A model generated the notes under the pieces. It was given only the letters and a program-made list of their open reading frames with translations, did no database searches and was not told the DNA's origin. Shown in pieces: positions 22,459-30,096 of a DNA stretch of 64,000 nt (its first letter is position 1; each line of letters starts with the position of its first letter). A program made the position numbers and the translations under genes. Where the stretch lies: positions 372,001-436,000 of the forward strand of contig JABXIG010000003.1 in NCBI GenBank assembly GCA_013373205.1. The letters run 5' to 3'. This DNA comes from Methylocystaceae bacterium (lineage in GTDB: Bacteria; Pseudomonadota; Alphaproteobacteria; Rhodospirillales; Terasakiellaceae).

Positions 22459-24072
22459 TTACTTCAATTCCATATAATCCAGATCAGATGTTATAGAGAA
22501 AATCTGGCGGGATCCTTCAAAATAAATACGGATAGAACCGCGTTGTAAATCAGGGATACTACCACGGGTATCTGCGATTTTACGAATTTCAAAGACCTCG
22601 GTTAAGCCTTCATCCGGCTTTTCACGTCGCCAGATATAGGTCGGGTTGGGCAGGGTGCCTTGTTTGACGGTGCGGGTTTTGCGCTCAAACTTGTGGGTGG
22701 CCGGTCCAAAATTTTTCTCGTAATAAGCGACAATTGTATCAAAGCCTTCCTGATTAAACAGAGTGTACAGGCGTGTTGCAATATCACCATCATACTGGGT
22801 AATCCCCTGTGCACCTTTGTAAAGGTGGGTGGAAACATCAAAATGACGGGCAATTCGCACAGGCCAGCGTGTTGGGGTGATACAATAGGCAACGGTCCCC
22901 CGGTTCTTCGTAAAGCACCGGGCCTCGCTACTCAGGTCGTCATCGCTTTGTCCAAGTGAGATATCTTCGCCAAGGGCAAACCGGGCCTTGAGCAGACGGG
23001 GATCAAGTGGGGCTTTGGGTTTTTCTTCCTGTGACGGGATTTTATCAACAGGATCAACTTTTTCGATTACAGGCAGAGGCTTGGCTTTTTGTTCTGTTTC
23101 TTTATCGCTGCCTAACATATTGCCAAAGAAATTGCCGATTGTATCAAATAGCCCCCCTTCATCCGGGACGGACTGGGCTTCAAGTACGCGTGGTTTAATG
23201 GTTTTTTCCACGGCAGTTTCTTTTGGTGCGGGTTCCGCTTCGACAACAATGCTGCGAACAGGTTTTTCCTCACTTGAAAAAAGCCGTTCCAGTATGCCGG
23301 GTGAAGACGACGTGTCTTCAGCTTTTGGGGCTACAGTTTCAATGTTGGTCACTTCAGCCGGGCTTTCCACCGGGGTGGTGGGGGCAAGCTGTTGGGGTTC
23401 AAACGGTTGTGCGTTTGGATTGACGGAAAAAGGCTGGGGCTGTGGTTCGGGTGCGACTTCCGCAACAGGTGTGGGTTTAACCTTGATTGGCGTCGTTTCC
23501 TCAACCGACTGGGGAGGAAGGTCAGGAACAGATGGGACTTGTTTTACCTCTTTCATAACAGGTTTTTCAACTGTTTCGGCTTTTACAGGCGGGGCCTCTT
23601 TGACGGGGTCAACATTTTTCTCCTGTGCAGGCTTATCTTCTGTGCTGAAAAAATTTGCCAGACGATCAAAGAAGGAGCTGTCTTCCTGTGGCGGCGTTTC
23701 TGTATTTTGACCGTCCTTCATTTTGAACATTTTGGCCTCAGACGGCGTTGGCTGTGGCGCGGGTGATTCTTTGACTATTTCCTGAGTGATTGGAGTTTCA
23801 ACAGATGTAGGGGCAGGCACAGGTGCTTGTTGGACCACAGGTGCAGGTGTGGGGGCCGGTTCAGGAAGAGGTGGAAGTTGTGGGGCTACAGGTGTTGGCG
23901 CTGTGGGGCTGGCCGTTGGTTCTGTTGGGGCCACGGCATTGGGGGAAAACGGATCAAATGGTGTGGTCTGCGCATGGGTAGGCAGGTTTAATAAAAGACA
24001 GGCACCAAGAAAAAGGTGAAAACGAAAACCCTTTTGTCTCGTATTAGCTGTCAGCCGTTTTCCCATCATCAT
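22459..24072 (-). CDS. Secreted proline-rich protein with three amphipathic repeats and a C-terminal domain
   Basis: A 537-residue protein of no family I recognise. An N-terminal signal peptide (FHLFLGACLLLNLPTHA-Q) is followed by about 320 residues rich in Pro, Val, Glu, Ala and Thr, probably disordered. Within it are three spaced hydrophobic/acidic modules: SFFDRLANFFSTEDKP (about 135), GILERLFSSEEKP (about 258) and GLFDTIGNFFGNMLGSDKE (about 305). The last 180 residues look folded, with two cysteines in CFTKNRGTVAYCITP and a terminal IRIYFEGSRQIFSITSDLDY. This is consistent with a periplasmic or envelope protein whose linker spans a distance. It is followed downstream of a subtilisin gene on the same strand. 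Confidence 0.8.
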   Translation of the reverse strand: MMMGKRLTANTRQKGFRFHLFLGACLLLNLPTHAQTTPFDPFSPNAVAPTEPTASPTAPTPVAPQLPPLPEPAPTPAPVVQQAPVPAPTSVETPITQEIVKESPAPQPTPSEAKMFKMKDGQNTETPPQEDSSFFDRLANFFSTEDKPAQEKNVDPVKEAPPVKAETVEKPVMKEVKQVPSVPDLPPQSVEETTPIKVKPTPVAEVAPEPQPQPFSVNPNAQPFEPQQLAPTTPVESPAEVTNIETVAPKAEDTSSSPGILERLFSSEEKPVRSIVVEAEPAPKETAVEKTIKPRVLEAQSVPDEGGLFDTIGNFFGNMLGSDKETEQKAKPLPVIEKVDPVDKIPSQEEKPKAPLDPRLLKARFALGEDISLGQSDDDLSSEARCFTKNRGTVAYCITPTRWPVRIARHFDVSTHLYKGAQGITQYDGDIATRLYTLFNQEGFDTIVAYYEKNFGPATHKFERKTRTVKQGTLPNPTYIWRREKPDEGLTEVFEIRKIADTRGSIPDLQRGSIRIYFEGSRQIFSITSDLDYMELK

Positions 24073-24142: not shown

Positions 24143-25729
24143 CTACCATTTCTGGCGATCTTCGCGGTGATCAAAGATGCGAATACCGCCGACGGAATCC
24201 TCGTGTCTGGCCGTCGGTATAGGTGATTTTTCGTTTCGATCAGGTTTTTGCACGATGACGTGACGCTGGTTAAGGGCTTTAAAGATGTTTAATCGTCCAC
24301 CCGAAGCGACTTTGTCTCTAAAGGCGGGTGATTTATCAACACTTGCCATCAAACGGGCTTTGAGTTCCAGATTAGTCAGGCTTGGGTTTTGCGCCAACAA
24401 AAGGGCGGCGGTCCCGCTAACGATGGGGGCAGCCATGGATGTGCCCTGTGAGGCTTTATATTCATTTCTTGGAATGGGATCATGACCTGCAGGTATGGTG
24501 CTGACAATATTTACGCCGGGGGAGGCAAGGTCAACGTACCTTTTTCCAAAATTTGAAAAACGGGCAAGCTCATCAGATTCATTACTTGCTGCGACAGACA
24601 AAATGCCGTCAGAAGGGTAGCTTGCAGGATATGAACGATGGCGCCCATCATTGTCGTTTGCATTGTTCCCCGCCGCTGCCACAATGAGAACGCCCCGATC
24701 TGTCAGGGCTTTGTACATCCGTTCGGCTAAGGGACTATGACCATACCCACCGAGACTCATATTGACGACTTTCGCCCCGTTGTCCACGGCATATTGCACG
24801 GCTTTCAGAATGGAAACAGTATCACCACCGCCGCAGGTGCCGCCCAATGCTTTAAGGGGCATGATTTTTACTTTTTCGGCAATGCCGACAATGCCTTTAT
24901 TGTTGTTTTTGACCGCAGCGATCGTTCCGGCCACATGGGTGCCGTGGGTTTCATAAATTTTGATGGTTGGGTGTGGTGTGCAGAGGTAGCGGCCCGTATC
25001 AGGGTCATGCCCAAGAACAGGAAGAGCATTTAAATAAGCATAGGGCAAGTGGTTATTGTCTACGAAATTCCAGCCGACCACATCATCGACATAACCGTTT
25101 TTATCATCATCAATTTGATTGTCCGGGATTTCATCTTCGTTTTTCCAGATGTGGCCGCGCAGGTCTTCGTGATTGTATTGTATGCCCGTATCGACAACAG
25201 CAACGATGACGTCATCAGCATTTGTATTGGGCAGGCTGTCCCAGGCTTTGAAGGCTTCGATCCGGTTCAAAAACCACATGCTGTCAACCAGACTGTCATT
25301 GGGCTTGCCCCCCAAAGCATGGACCATATAGTTGGGGGAGACATATTCCACATTGGCATCGCTGGACATTATGTCGGCTAAATTTTGCCACTTGCCTGTG
25401 CTTGCCGGGTTGGCGAGTCTGACATGAGCGATGTTGAACATTTGCAAAGATGTGTCGACCTGAACGTCTTTTCCCAGTTTTTGAAACCATGCGGGTGCAG
25501 CTTGAGTCGCTAATGAATTCAATGACTTATTGGTTTTAAACTGGACTAGGAACTCCCCTTCAATCGCTTGTGGCTGCAAAGGCGCTTTTAGGAGTTTTAT
25601 CTCAGAGCCTGCCTCTTCGCCAAAAGCCTTGGAAAGCTGCGGAGTCGCATAAGGAAATAAAAATAAAAAAATGAGTGCAAAACTGTGTATTTTTGCTAAA
25701 AATCCTGTATATTTTCTTAATGTTCGCAT
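24143..25729 (-). CDS. Secreted subtilisin-like serine protease (S8 family)
   Basis: A 528-residue protease. A hydrophobic signal segment (FALIFLFLFPYA) is followed by an inhibitor-I9-like propeptide ending NVEYVSPNYMVHAL. The catalytic triad is complete: Asp in VAVVDTGIQYNHEDL, His in ETHGTHVAGTIAA, Ser in GTSMAAPIVSG, with the oxyanion Asn in VAAAGNNAND. A charged C-terminal tail of about 50 residues (VIVQKPDRNEKSP) follows the fold. It is upstream of the proline-rich protein gene with a 70-base gap, so they may share a transcript. Whether it acts on that neighbour is a guess. Confidence 0.93.
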   Translation of the reverse strand: MRTLRKYTGFLAKIHSFALIFLFLFPYATPQLSKAFGEEAGSEIKLLKAPLQPQAIEGEFLVQFKTNKSLNSLATQAAPAWFQKLGKDVQVDTSLQMFNIAHVRLANPASTGKWQNLADIMSSDANVEYVSPNYMVHALGGKPNDSLVDSMWFLNRIEAFKAWDSLPNTNADDVIVAVVDTGIQYNHEDLRGHIWKNEDEIPDNQIDDDKNGYVDDVVGWNFVDNNHLPYAYLNALPVLGHDPDTGRYLCTPHPTIKIYETHGTHVAGTIAAVKNNNKGIVGIAEKVKIMPLKALGGTCGGGDTVSILKAVQYAVDNGAKVVNMSLGGYGHSPLAERMYKALTDRGVLIVAAAGNNANDNDGRHRSYPASYPSDGILSVAASNESDELARFSNFGKRYVDLASPGVNIVSTIPAGHDPIPRNEYKASQGTSMAAPIVSGTAALLLAQNPSLTNLELKARLMASVDKSPAFRDKVASGGRLNIFKALNQRHVIVQKPDRNEKSPIPTARHEDSVGGIRIFDHREDRQKW

Positions 25730-25872: not shown

Positions 25873-28800
25873 ATGAGCAATGATGGTTCCAAGCGCGAAG
25901 GCCCTTCGATAGAAGTTGCTTTTGATGCAGAAAATCAAACAGATCAAGCAAGCGCAGATAAAAACAGCGCTAAAAAACCATTGCCGGAACTTTCGCCCCT
26001 GCAAAAAGATTATTTGCTTGATGGCGGGGATCGTATGGTCGATGTGGAAGCATTGGCAGCAGAAGATTGGACGCCGCCTGCGTATGTACGTTATCGCCTG
26101 TTAACCATCGCGGCTGTTTTGCTGTCTGTCGGCTGGGTCTATGGTGCTTATGATTATATCGAAACCTATTTTGGCTGGTCTAATGTCAGCGAACTGATGC
26201 CCCATGAAATAGGTGGTCTCGCTGCGGGGCTGGTCACGCCTTTGGCGCTATTGTGGCTGGTCGCGGCTTATCTGGAACGCAGCCGCTTGCTGGAAAATGA
26301 AAGTCAGGCCTTGCGCTGGTATTTGCGCCGCATGGTCTATCCATCTGAAACCGCCGAAGAACGTGTGCGTTCTATCACAGATGCTATTCGTGGTCAGACA
26401 CGCGAACTTACCCAGGCATCCGAAGATGCGCTTGTCAGATCGCGCGCCATCCATGATATGTTGCGCGAACGCAGTGTGGATTTGGCTGAAGTTTCAAGCA
26501 CGGCGGATATTAAGGCACGTGAAGCCGAAGATACATTGCGCCGTCAGGCCGAAGGCTTGCTGGATGTCTCAGATCGCGCCATTGATCGGGCACGTGAAGT
26601 CGGCAACGTGCTTCATCATCAGGCCCATGATTTAGTGAATGTGTCAGAACGTGCCTCCAGTCGGACCGAAGGTATTGCCGAAACATTGAAGCGTCGTTCC
26701 ATGGATTTGGAACGGGTGTCCGATGCATTGGTTGATAAAACCAAGGAAACTGCCTCTATCTTCCAACGCGAAGGTAAATCTTTACAGACGATTTATGAAG
26801 ATGCCAAGTTGCGAAGCGGCGAAATCGGTGATCTACTTGCCATGACAATGGGGGGGGTATCTTCGGCAGCAGAAGAAGCGGCGGATAATCTCTCTAAAAA
26901 TGCTATTTTGCTCGAAAAACAGACCGTTACCCTGAAACAGCATTCCGAAGATGCGCGTGTGCAGGGTGACAAAATGGGTAAAGCTTTTGCCGGTCAGCTC
27001 AGTCAGTTGAATGCCACAGCTGAACTGGTCAAAAATCAGACCCAGCAAATTCAGGAAAACCTGTCTTCACAGACCAGCCAGCTTAACCAGACCGCGGACC
27101 ATGTGAGTGATCGGGTCCGTGATATGCGCGATACGTTGAAAGAAAGTGCCAACGATCTGCGTAATGCGACAGATAATTCCCTGATGGGGATGCGCAGTAC
27201 ATCTGATGCGTTTCGCCAGCAGGTGCGCGAACTGGATGCAGCGACAGAACGCGGGATGGAACGGACAAATAAACTGAGTGATGAAATTCAGCAGGCAGCA
27301 CAAGAAACCGTTTCCTCCAGTCATCGTGTGCATGAAGAATTAAAACAGATTCAAGACCAGATCAAAGAAGCCGGTCAGGATGTCGAAATGATTGGTGGGG
27401 AAGCGCGTCAACAACTGGATAGTACGGGCGAAGTTTTGCGTAGCCGTATGGATGAACTTGAAGAACTGTCCAGCCTGTCCGAACAACGTTTGCAAAATGC
27501 CGGAAACCGTTTACAGAAACGTTCCCTTGATTTGATTGATGCATCGACAAATGCAGCAAGCCGTATTCAGGCGGTCACAACTGCTTTGCATGATGGTTCG
27601 CAGACCTTAACAGTCTTGTCTGATAAAGGGGTGTCGAGCATTGATCAGGCAACAGAAAGCCTGCGCCGGTCTGCACAGGAAGTCACTTTGTTGGGTGAGA
27701 AAGCGCAAGGCCAAAGTGATCAGATGGTCGAACGTCTGGATGAAATGCGCGAAAGTGCCGATGATGCAGAAACATCTATCAAGGCGTTGGGGCATACGTT
27801 ATCCGATCAGCATGAACGTCTGCAAAAAACATCTTTGGCTTCTCGCGATGCCTTGGCGGAAGCGGGTCGTCGTCTTTCCCACCATGCCCAAAATCTGGAT
27901 CAGGCCTCCAGTGAAGCCGCTTCGCGCATGGAATCCGTCAGTACGACCTTGCATGACCGAACAGACGAGCTGGATCAGGTAAGCCAACGCACAGCCGAAC
28001 GACTGCATCAGATGGATGGCACATTACAGACCAGCACACGGTCTTTGAAAAATACAGCCGATGCAGCGGCGCGTCAGATGGAAAACTATTCTGAACGTCT
28101 GGATCAGCAAACCGCAGTCTTAAGCACGACGGCAGATCAAACCGCAAGCCAGCTGGAACAGGCACAAGCTGCGATCCGACAAAGTGGCATGGAAATGTCC
28201 AGTACATCTGATCGTGCGGCCAAATTGATGGCGCTTGTTGGGTCTGGATTTAAACGTCAGCGCGATGCGGTCATGGCTGCAACGGATGAAGCGGGAAAGA
28301 AAGTCTTTTCTATTGGTGAAGAACTTGAAACCCATGCCCTGCGCTTGAATGAAGTTGCAGATCAAGCGGGCGGTACATTGGCCGAAACCATCACAGAGAT
28401 GGAAAACCGTGTCGAAGATGCCGGGGTGAATTTGACCAAACGTGTCCAACGGGTGGGCACGCAAGCACAGTCTGTTATTGAATCAGTCGATCAGGCTGCC
28501 CTTGCCTTGGATAGTCAGGCACAAAAATTGGCCGAACATGCTGTACGTGCCAACCAAGACATCGTTTCGGTTGGGGAAACAACGCAAAGTATTTCGCGCG
28601 AAACTTTTGAAGAAACCGAAAAGACAGCCGCCCGTCTCGGCCAGATTGGTGACACGTTGAAATCCCATGTGGCAACACTGGATGGGGTGACGCAAAATGC
28701 CCAAGGCACCTTGTTTGATATGGGTGAATTGTTGTCAAAACGCAGTGAAGACATGGCACGCGCGGCAGGTGATGCACGCAATCAGGTTCATCTGGTGGGT

Positions 28801-30096
28801 GAAGAATTAAGCCGACAGTCTGCAAAATTGAATGATGTGGCAGATTATGCGCTTTCTCGTGTTAATCAGTTGGGTGATACGTTGGATGAACGTACCGATA
28901 CGGTGGCAAACTCTATGGATCGCGCGGCCAAGATGATGACGCAAATCGCAGAAAATATGCAAAAAGCCAGCCGTGATGCTCAAGCCGCCACCGAGCAGGC
29001 CAATAGCCAACTCAGCAGCGTAACCCATAACATGGAACGCAGCGGTGATCAGGTGGAACAGGTGACCCATCAGACTGTGTCACAATTAAAAGAAGCCATT
29101 CTGGCCATGCAGGAATTTGTTGGTCAGTTGGAAGGGCGTTCCGAAAAAGCAGCACAACGGCTTAATAAAGCTGGTGAACTGGTGCGTGAACGTTCCGATC
29201 TAGTGGCGGGTGCTGCACAGCAAATTCACGATGATATCTATCAGGCGGCTGAACGCTTGGAAGAACGCACGAAAGAAGTTCTGGCCGCCGGTGAGAAAAG
29301 CGCCTTGCAACTGGACGCGGTGGGTAAATCGCTGGAACGCAAAACCAAGGCAGCGCAAGCGGGCACACAAGAAGTACGTAAAGGCTTTGAAGTGGCAGGG
29401 GCTGCTGCGCGTCAACAGATGGACGAACTGTCTGGTACATTGAACAAATCCATCAAGGATATTAATTCAGCGACCGATAGTTTGGAAAACCGGGCACAGG
29501 ATGTTCAACAAGTCTCCGACCTTGCGATGGAAAAACTTGGGGCCTGGGATGATAATTTGAAAAAACGTTCTGAATTATTACGCAAAACATGGTCGGATGC
29601 GGCCCATGAAGCCCATGATGCGGCCAAGGCGATGGAACAACAAACCAAGTCCATGGGTGAACTTAACCGCCATGCCCTTGATTTGACTAAGGATTTGAAA
29701 CAGGTTGATGCCAAGGTTGGTACTGAAGAATTCATGCGCCGCCATGCCTTTGTTGTGGAATCTTTACAGTCACTGGGCGTGGATATCACCCGTGAACTTG
29801 AAATTGGCATTACGGAAGAAGAATGGCGTCGTTTTACCCGTGGGGATCGTTCTATCTTCATTCGCAAGCTTGCGGCCCTCAAAGATCGCAGTAAGTTGAA
29901 TGCGCTGAAAGATGCATACCGCGATCATGAAGCCTTTAGGACCTATACCAACCGATATTTCCAGGAATTTGAACAGCTGATCCTGCAAGCCAAAGATAAA
30001 GATCCCCATGGCATTTTGGCCAATACATTCTATGGATCGGATGTGGGTAAGGTCTATTTGTCTCTGTGTCAGGGCTTGGGGCGTGAACCAAAGTAA
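25873..30096 (+). CDS. Giant membrane-anchored protein of about forty 25-residue helical repeats
   Basis: A 1407-residue protein. A cytoplasmic N-terminal tail (1-70) is followed by two transmembrane helices (about 73-93 and 113-133). From about residue 170 to 1290 runs a nearly uninterrupted tandem array of 25-residue units, roughly 43 copies. Position 3 is usually Leu, 10 Leu, 13 hydrophobic, 17 Ala, 21 and 24 hydrophobic and 25 Gly or small; examples are DTLRRQAEGLLDVSDRA and EELSRQSAKLNDVADYA. Two copies are shortened, by four and three residues. Twenty-five residues in seven turns predicts a long, only weakly twisted coiled coil. The last 115 residues are a separate domain (EEEWRRFTRGDRSIFIRKL, then GSDVGKVYLSLCQGLGRE). 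Two N-terminal membrane helices plus a long coiled coil resemble polarity factors such as Caulobacter TipN, but homology is not established. Function unknown. Confidence 0.9.
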   Translation: MSNDGSKREGPSIEVAFDAENQTDQASADKNSAKKPLPELSPLQKDYLLDGGDRMVDVEALAAEDWTPPAYVRYRLLTIAAVLLSVGWVYGAYDYIETYFGWSNVSELMPHEIGGLAAGLVTPLALLWLVAAYLERSRLLENESQALRWYLRRMVYPSETAEERVRSITDAIRGQTRELTQASEDALVRSRAIHDMLRERSVDLAEVSSTADIKAREAEDTLRRQAEGLLDVSDRAIDRAREVGNVLHHQAHDLVNVSERASSRTEGIAETLKRRSMDLERVSDALVDKTKETASIFQREGKSLQTIYEDAKLRSGEIGDLLAMTMGGVSSAAEEAADNLSKNAILLEKQTVTLKQHSEDARVQGDKMGKAFAGQLSQLNATAELVKNQTQQIQENLSSQTSQLNQTADHVSDRVRDMRDTLKESANDLRNATDNSLMGMRSTSDAFRQQVRELDAATERGMERTNKLSDEIQQAAQETVSSSHRVHEELKQIQDQIKEAGQDVEMIGGEARQQLDSTGEVLRSRMDELEELSSLSEQRLQNAGNRLQKRSLDLIDASTNAASRIQAVTTALHDGSQTLTVLSDKGVSSIDQATESLRRSAQEVTLLGEKAQGQSDQMVERLDEMRESADDAETSIKALGHTLSDQHERLQKTSLASRDALAEAGRRLSHHAQNLDQASSEAASRMESVSTTLHDRTDELDQVSQRTAERLHQMDGTLQTSTRSLKNTADAAARQMENYSERLDQQTAVLSTTADQTASQLEQAQAAIRQSGMEMSSTSDRAAKLMALVGSGFKRQRDAVMAATDEAGKKVFSIGEELETHALRLNEVADQAGGTLAETITEMENRVEDAGVNLTKRVQRVGTQAQSVIESVDQAALALDSQAQKLAEHAVRANQDIVSVGETTQSISRETFEETEKTAARLGQIGDTLKSHVATLDGVTQNAQGTLFDMGELLSKRSEDMARAAGDARNQVHLVGEELSRQSAKLNDVADYALSRVNQLGDTLDERTDTVANSMDRAAKMMTQIAENMQKASRDAQAATEQANSQLSSVTHNMERSGDQVEQVTHQTVSQLKEAILAMQEFVGQLEGRSEKAAQRLNKAGELVRERSDLVAGAAQQIHDDIYQAAERLEERTKEVLAAGEKSALQLDAVGKSLERKTKAAQAGTQEVRKGFEVAGAAARQQMDELSGTLNKSIKDINSATDSLENRAQDVQQVSDLAMEKLGAWDDNLKKRSELLRKTWSDAAHEAHDAAKAMEQQTKSMGELNRHALDLTKDLKQVDAKVGTEEFMRRHAFVVESLQSLGVDITRELEIGITEEEWRRFTRGDRSIFIRKLAALKDRSKLNALKDAYRDHEAFRTYTNRYFQEFEQLILQAKDKDPHGILANTFYGSDVGKVYLSLCQGLGREPK

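Follow-up and report, generated by a model that had tools for sequence, protein, structure and literature searches.

A Terasakiella-type, probably coiled-coil rod protein with a 25-residue period and its place in the GPR/RgsE family of polar proteins

The locus and the protein

The stretch of DNA analysed here, called the window, comprises 64,000 nucleotides from a Methylocystaceae bacterium (GenBank assembly GCA_013373205.1, contig JABXIG010000003.1, forward-strand positions 372,001 to 436,000). The source is a marine bacterium. The gene studied encodes a long rod protein related to RgsE of Sinorhizobium meliloti and, through it, to the GROWTH POLE RING protein (GPR) of Agrobacterium. The parts of the gene, numbered within the window, are as follows.

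25873..30096, plus strand: whole open reading frame (ORF) of the RgsE/GPR-family rod protein, ATG start, unbroken, 1,407 amino acids
25873..26082, plus strand: residues 1-70, N-terminal tail, acidic (net charge -8) and variable among relatives
26098..26166, plus strand: residues about 76-98, predicted membrane helix 1 (AlphaFold2 model of residues 62-300, helix at model positions 15-39; missed by the hydropathy cut in the closest relatives)
26206..26274, plus strand: residues about 112-134, predicted membrane helix 2, the helix extending to about residue 155 (AlphaFold2 helix, model positions 49-94; anchor homology to RgsE and TipN-sized proteins)
26368..29742, plus strand: residues 166-1290, rod of 42 full 25-residue units and five odd ones, without proline; the final unit extends into the beginning of the C-terminal domain
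27718..27855, plus strand: residues 616-661, first irregular zone, in which the cyclic 25-state profile gives units of 14, 20 and 12
28231..28392, plus strand: residues 787-840, second irregular zone, with units of 18, 25 and 11, of which the last spans 830-840
29719..30093, plus strand: residues 1283-1407, conserved domain, all-helical in the AlphaFold2 model and carrying the family signature

The closest named relatives belong to Terasakiella. Identity to the window protein was 73% over the whole protein and 91% in the C-terminal domain for T. brassicae, and 84% and 88%, respectively, for T. pusilla. The ORF matched only itself in its own 4.09-Mb genome, where no second copy was found at E <= 0.001.

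Period and geometry of the rod

Hydropathy autocorrelation over residues 170-1290 peaked at lags 25, 75 and 50 (0.46, 0.45 and 0.45), the maximum at any lag in 500 shuffles being 0.124. The Fourier spectrum had a power of 153 at 25/7 residues per turn, compared with 0.03 at 3.5 and 0.98 at 11/3; each of the five 250-residue segments examined had its peak at 3.570. The cyclic 25-state profile scored 787, against at most 331 in 30 shuffles. The 25-residue period of the rod is far beyond chance. The initial annotation, made from the letters alone, had described about forty 25-residue repeats behind two membrane helices, with 25 residues in seven turns (3.57), and had staked this on a period search; the signal is overwhelming and the repeats stand, as 42 full units.

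With unit 1 starting at residue 166, each unit has seven core positions (3, 7, 11, 14, 18, 21 and 25), spaced 4-4-3-4-3-4-3, i.e. one hendecad and two heptads. In this register, the Leu at 3 and 10 and the Ala at 17 noted earlier fall on core positions 7, 14 and 21. Instead of the two short units reported before (by 4 and 3 residues), the present analysis gives five odd units in the two irregular zones. In residues 166-615, charged or polar residues occupied 0.8% of core positions and 60.8% of the others. The seam is narrow (7 of 25 positions), and Ala, Gly, Ser and Thr make up half of the core. Proline is absent from residues 166-1290, and in the AlphaFold2 model of residues 62-300 the helix runs unbroken for 141 residues up to the end of the folded piece. 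If continuous, the rod (1,125 residues at 0.148-0.150 nm) would measure 167-169 nm, which agrees with the more than 150 nm proposed before, and would probably be nearly straight. Tandem Repeats Finder detected no tandem repeat in the DNA of the window gene, so the units are considered old and diverged.

Several generic families matched the rod. The apolipoprotein A1/A4/E family (PF01442) did so weakly (25.2 bits, E 1.5e-5), and GPR has been classed as an apolipoprotein (PMC8262873). The repeats might accordingly lie on the membrane or on lipid droplets, which we regard as very unlikely. The PF01442 cut-off of 90 bits was not reached. PF01442 matches at E <= 0.01 occurred in 12 of 14 control genomes, none above the cut-off, and the three in the window's own genome lay in other genes; since controls match so widely below the cut-off, these matches are unspecific, and membership was rejected. 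The period of apolipoprotein repeats is 11/22, unlike the 25 found here, and the narrow seam of 7 positions in 25, half of them small residues, also speaks against a lipid binder. SMC, ZorA and MCE models scored the protein similarly to PF01442 (33.1, 29.7 and 23.5 bits, against cut-offs of 567.35, 190 and 140.5) and were rejected as generic coiled-coil matches.

C-terminal domain and membrane anchor

The C-terminal domain carries the signature ESLxSLxVDI...W..F.RGdr.vF.RkL...FR..v.RY...F...L...SDxGKvY..L...GR. AlphaFold2 folded residues 1255-1407 into a confident helical domain (predicted local distance difference test, pLDDT, 85.4; predicted TM-score, pTM, 0.74). No Pfam family matched the domain, and comparison with PDB sequences gave no match at E <= 1. 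A Foldseek search against the PDB gave none at E <= 0.001 (best E 0.067, TM-score 0.24), so no function can be assigned from the fold. Its placement at the far end from the membrane, as first proposed, was borne out.

A search of a plasmid collection with the domain (E 2e-19) yielded six records, four of them from Sinorhizobium. The match in S. meliloti Ak57 was a gene of 2,089 amino acids annotated 'kinesin', which was read as RgsE because its length equals that published for RgsE (PMC7327166). The domain is 40.9% identical to that of S. meliloti RgsE over 115 residues (E 5.5e-25). Set A3 comprised 52 of the 53 prepared references (L023 left out), and set A5 the window and 33 loci.

The AlphaFold2 model of residues 62-300 (pLDDT 80.9, pTM 0.33) contains two membrane helices, then a break at a Tyr-Pro-Ser motif ahead of the 141-residue helix. 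A hydropathy cut (19-residue mean > 1.6) marked two helices in some relatives and one in others, including both Terasakiella relatives; the evidence for helix 1 is therefore the model, a reading of the sequence and the relatives. By hhalign, the anchor of the window group matched that of Rhizobiales with a probability of 94% (E 1.4e-7, 112 columns); an unrelated control pair gave 0.1%. Plain blastp of the window anchor against Shinella gave E 2e-4.

Relationship with RgsE, GPR and TipN

Judged from the sequences, the window protein is homologous to RgsE in the C-terminal domain and the membrane anchor. RgsE is a homolog of GPR (PMC7327166); as RgsE matches at both ends, the window protein was placed in the GPR/RgsE family. 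The initial annotation, which offered a spacer, polarity or filament protein, was right about the polarity candidate and missed this membership. A well-described family of known function, which by its own terms would have spoken against it, exists in part: the family is described, while its function is known in Rhizobiales only, and in Caulobacter if TipN belongs. Its observation is thus confirmed and its interpretation partly supported. Distant RgsE homologs in Emcibacterales and Rhodospirillales have already been reported, another role being suggested there as possible (PMC7327166).

Like the window protein, S. meliloti RgsE (SMc00190) has a two-helix anchor, a long cytoplasmic helical rod and the homologous domain at its very C-terminus. 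PhoA fusions placed RgsE in the membrane with its bulk in the cytoplasm (PMC7327166). RgsE differs in its length of 2,089 residues and in its rod. For the most part that rod follows an 11/22-residue period, its segments peaking at 3.630-3.675 residues per turn; in one stretch, residues 1401-1650, the value is close to 3.585. The window protein shares the anchor, the C-terminal domain and the long helical rod of the family, and lacks the 11/22-residue, apolipoprotein-like rod with PF01442 domains, its period being 25. As anchor and C-terminal domain are common to both, the 11/22 period was taken as a trait of the Rhizobiales branch and not as defining the family. Scy and FilP of Streptomyces are polarity coiled coils that likewise mix heptads and hendecads; they differ in having a 51-residue repeat and no membrane anchor.

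Like the window protein, GPR (Atu1348) has two N-terminal membrane helices and a long helical part, which in GPR comprises about 1,700 residues (PMC8262873). It differs in its 2,115 residues, a proline-rich region near the C-terminus and its location in a growth-pole ring; the comparison was made through the RgsE sequence. GPR deletions showed that the C-terminus is required for function and dispensable for ring formation, and removal of the last 10 residues already impaired complementation (PMC8262873). By homology via RgsE, these 10 residues would fall within the conserved C-terminal domain.

The initial annotation had called the resemblance to TipN architectural only; it is probably homology, because f82, a Caulobacter-like family, has proteins the size of TipN that match both the anchor and the C-terminal domain. 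In 46 of 60 f82 genomes the domain was present in diverged form (E <= 0.1), mostly in ORFs of about 800-1,050 residues. Profile-profile comparison of the f82 domain with A1 gave 97.9% (E 3.5e-13), set A4 comprising seven of ten loci (L113, L119 and L121 left out). The f82 anchors matched the window group at 95.8% (E 7.9e-9) and Rhizobiales at 72.6%. Each of four full f82 ORFs (830-881 residues) has two membrane helices. Lag 25 was top or joint-top in three of them (0.26, 0.26 and 0.32, against shuffle maxima of 0.22, 0.20 and 0.19); in the fourth it reached 0.21 (shuffle 0.20) and was not the top lag.

TipN has 882 residues (PMC13170164), and GPR has been likened to TipN (PMC8546619, citing another paper). 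The holdfast gene HfaD, for which only Caulobacter scored among the 14 control genomes, gave matches at E 0.001 in 9 of 387 genomes, two of which, both of family f82, reached the cut-off; one of these, G270, has a C-terminal domain copy at E 1.2e-6. From size, anatomy and the HfaD gene of the family, the f82 proteins of about 830-880 residues are probably TipN orthologs. These probable orthologs have anchor and C-terminal domain in common with the window protein, and three of the four also show the 25-residue period. They differ from the 1,407-residue window protein in their length of 830-881 residues, in a shorter rod (segments of 350-387 residues examined) followed, on reading, by a proline-rich stretch, and in a strongly diverged C-terminal domain. 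Family f133 had HfaD matches below the cut-off and a clear copy of the domain (40-41% identity). A 658-residue ORF of a holdfast-bearing genome (L107, E 0.004) was dropped as a TipN candidate; on reading, its membrane part is of a different, ZorA/MotA-like type.

Geometry and length of the rod in relatives

The period was measured in 55 of 80 named loci; three were too short. The three top lags were 25, 50 and 75 in all 37 Rhodospirillales-type and Sneathiella loci. In Rhizobiales, the top lags included 11 and 22 in 7/7 loci, with a peak at 3.654-3.666. The signal was weak and mixed in the eight sphingomonad loci. Rod geometry is lineage-specific, being 25 in Rhodospirillales-type lineages and Sneathiella and 11/22 in Rhizobiales. 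All three Rhizobiales rods scanned by segment peaked at 3.585-3.600 near the C-terminal end, with a lag-25 signal of 0.20-0.30. The Rhizobiales rod would fit a 25-residue ancestor enlarged by hendecads.

Length was taken as the distance between residue 134, where membrane helix 2 ends, and Trp 1318, in Rhodospirillales-type and Sneathiella-type sequences only. From 64 sequences, 17 that were >=80% identical to another, one without a usable ORF and two that were misanchored (L138 and L143) were removed, leaving 44. The distance was exactly 1,173 in 19 of these 44 relatives (in one, Leu replaces Trp) and 1,184 in the window genus. The other differences from 1,173 were +7, -7, +22, +44, +55, +110, +121, +196, +220, +588 and +784, together with -1, -171, -276, -279, -290, -410 and -414, which fit no simple unit. 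Seven of the 19 distinct differences were multiples of 11 (binomial P 0.00096; 7/21 and P 0.0019 with L138 and L143 kept). Five were multiples of 7, which is not significant (P 0.12). None was a multiple of 25, a +200 case (L024) having been dropped beforehand for its 88% identity to L010. Modulus 11 had been anticipated on account of the hendecads, moduli 3 to 30 were also inspected, and the length differences are not all independent as the lineages are related.

Aligned with Magnetovibrio blakemorei (L029), the whole rod was gapless in 15 of 36 sequences (13 once two identical pairs are removed; gap opening 14). In this alignment, insertions of 22 and 220 residues lay near position 650, those of 11, 44, 55, 110 and 121 at 827-894, and those of 7 and 200 near 300. 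The 11-residue insertion of the window protein falls at Magnetovibrio position 827 (numbering 2 lower), i.e. at about window residue 829, in agreement with the register analysis, which independently placed an 11-residue unit at 830-840. In the segment of L043 that holds the 220-residue insert, the 25-residue signal was lost and the peak was at 3.650.

Tandem Repeats Finder detected a 588-bp tandem repeat in L052 and L134 (4.7 and 4.0 copies) and a 600-bp repeat (1.8 copies) in L024, which has 200 extra residues; some rods at least therefore grew by whole blocks. In L134 and L052 the added rod length equals three and four further copies, respectively, of a 196-residue block, the copies being up to 89% identical. 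On this sequence evidence, their enlargement is a recent expansion by tandem duplication.

The identical rod length in 19 of 44 relatives and the architecture by itself would also suit a membrane-tethered spacer or filament protein with no role in polarity. This reading seems most improbable, as the conserved C-terminal domain and the anchor link the window protein to polar proteins. The constant length may reflect a ruler or just the cost of breaking the seam.

Distribution and gene neighbourhood

Matches to the window protein were found in 35 of 40 related genomes, and the C-terminal profile matched in 154 of the 387 Alphaproteobacteria genomes that were sampled. The ORFs holding the domain reached 2,752 residues among the matches listed, some being cut by contig ends. 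Natural short forms with no long rod were found in family f49, in the five genomes matched by the C-terminal profile (L100-L104, five genera). On reading, their ORFs of 330-377 residues consist of two hydrophobic stretches, a short linker and a C-terminal domain that has diverged (E 1.5e-5 to 2.7e-10). In G001, G005 and G008, ORFs of 317-420 residues match only the anchor part and the next stretch of the window protein; these are possibly paralogs in the same genus and order, to judge by the matches.

A divergent Hpt-type (histidine phosphotransfer) ORF lay at most 1.2 kb upstream in 23 of 74 loci: 11/11 in Rhizobiales, where RgsE has such a gene, 12/22 in sphingomonads and 0/41 in others, including the window (8 of these 41 have less than 1.2 kb upstream, and the models were built from seven of the same ORFs). 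The Pfam Hpt cut-off was exceeded by 3/3 Rhizobiales copies tested and 0/3 sphingomonad copies. A phosphorelay connection to the polar GPR/RgsE family is a lead. Two examples are as follows.

L016:5087-5455: Hpt-type ORF
L017:7628-7921: Hpt-type ORF

A glycosyltransferase/TPR-like ORF of about 870-1,170 residues (four were read) precedes the family gene in seven loci, and not at the window. Divergent genes lie upstream in the window. One (24143-25729, minus strand) encodes an S8 (subtilisin-like) protease, with a mycosin model as best match, below cut-off; the other (22459-24072, minus strand) encodes a proline-rich 537-residue protein with no NCBIfam match.

Role of the protein

GPR (PMC8262873) and RgsE (PMC7327166) are located at the growing pole, and overproduction of either gave extra poles or branches; overproduction of TipN is reported to give ectopic poles (PMC5347347). 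The window protein might likewise be a scaffold that gathers envelope synthesis at one growing pole, given its homology to RgsE at both ends and the need for the GPR C-terminus. MreB is missing from most Rhizobiales, where Rgs proteins and MreB are reported to be mutually exclusive (PMC7327166). The window's own genome encodes MreB (504 bits) and a PopZ-family protein (84 bits). Since MreB is kept, a polarity landmark, as TipN is at the new pole, is likelier than such a scaffold, which we judge unlikely, and with MreB and PopZ present a landmark would be a better fit than polar growth. Outside Rhizobiales, homologs are reported for no Rgs proteins other than RgsE and RgsF (PMC7327166), which also speaks against a scaffold; the clients must therefore differ from those of Rhizobiales.

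We consider it likely that the window protein represents the Terasakiella type within the alphaproteobacterial GPR/RgsE (and probably TipN) family, a membrane-anchored coiled-coil rod that marks one pole. Two N-terminal helices would anchor it in the inner membrane, the N- and C-terminus both lying in the cytoplasm. From the membrane a single helix would emerge and pair with its own kind along the narrow Ala/Leu-rich seam. With one hendecad and two heptads in each unit of 25 residues and 7 turns, the result would be a coiled-coil rod, nearly straight and about 168 nm long, whose tip would display the compact helical domain, conserved across orders, for recruiting clients. Many rods jointly would form a polar cap or ring marking one cell pole. 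The analysis shows the architecture, the period, the homology of anchor and C-terminal domain to RgsE and the presence of MreB and PopZ; oligomerisation, straightness, client binding, polar localisation and role are inferred.

Several points weigh against this assignment, the scarcity of Rgs homologs outside Rhizobiales among them. Plain blastp of the window anchor against the corresponding region of RgsE was not significant (E 2.7). In profile comparison, sphingomonad anchors matched the window group weakly (28.6%) and failed to match the Rhizobiales anchor (0.4%). The link to TipN goes through f82 proteins that are probably TipN by size, anatomy and HfaD and not by name, and G090, an HfaD-positive f82 genome, shows no copy of the C-terminal domain even at E 0.1. 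For members with a 25-residue rod, the literature search turned up neither localisation nor knock-out data. The neighbours are uninformative on polarity: a sirohydrochlorin-type gene lies downstream on the minus strand in 13 loci, adjoined by CobA-type genes. These siroheme-type genes were rejected as partners, as they look like mere synteny.

The same literature search, which covered few subscription papers, found no description of a 25-residue repeat in the GPR/RgsE family or of a constant rod length. The lineage-specific geometry, the fixed distance of 1,173 and the short forms lacking a long rod thus appear unreported in the literature searched.

Polarity proteins mostly studied separately (GPR, RgsE and probably TipN) are joined here by one anchor and one C-terminal domain, a concrete target for finding a shared client. 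It is conceivable, if doubtful, that the rod is a molecular ruler: selection would fix the number of residues from membrane to tip, changes would often keep the seam in phase, and rod length would set the depth or diameter of the polar zone. Steps of 7, multiples of 11, 8 x 25 and tandem 196-residue blocks can be read as in phase. The recurrence of an exact rod length makes the idea directly testable, and the natural short form is a ready control. If it is true, one family of polar landmarks would have kept its anchor and its tip while the rod between them ranges from nearly none to about 2,000 residues.

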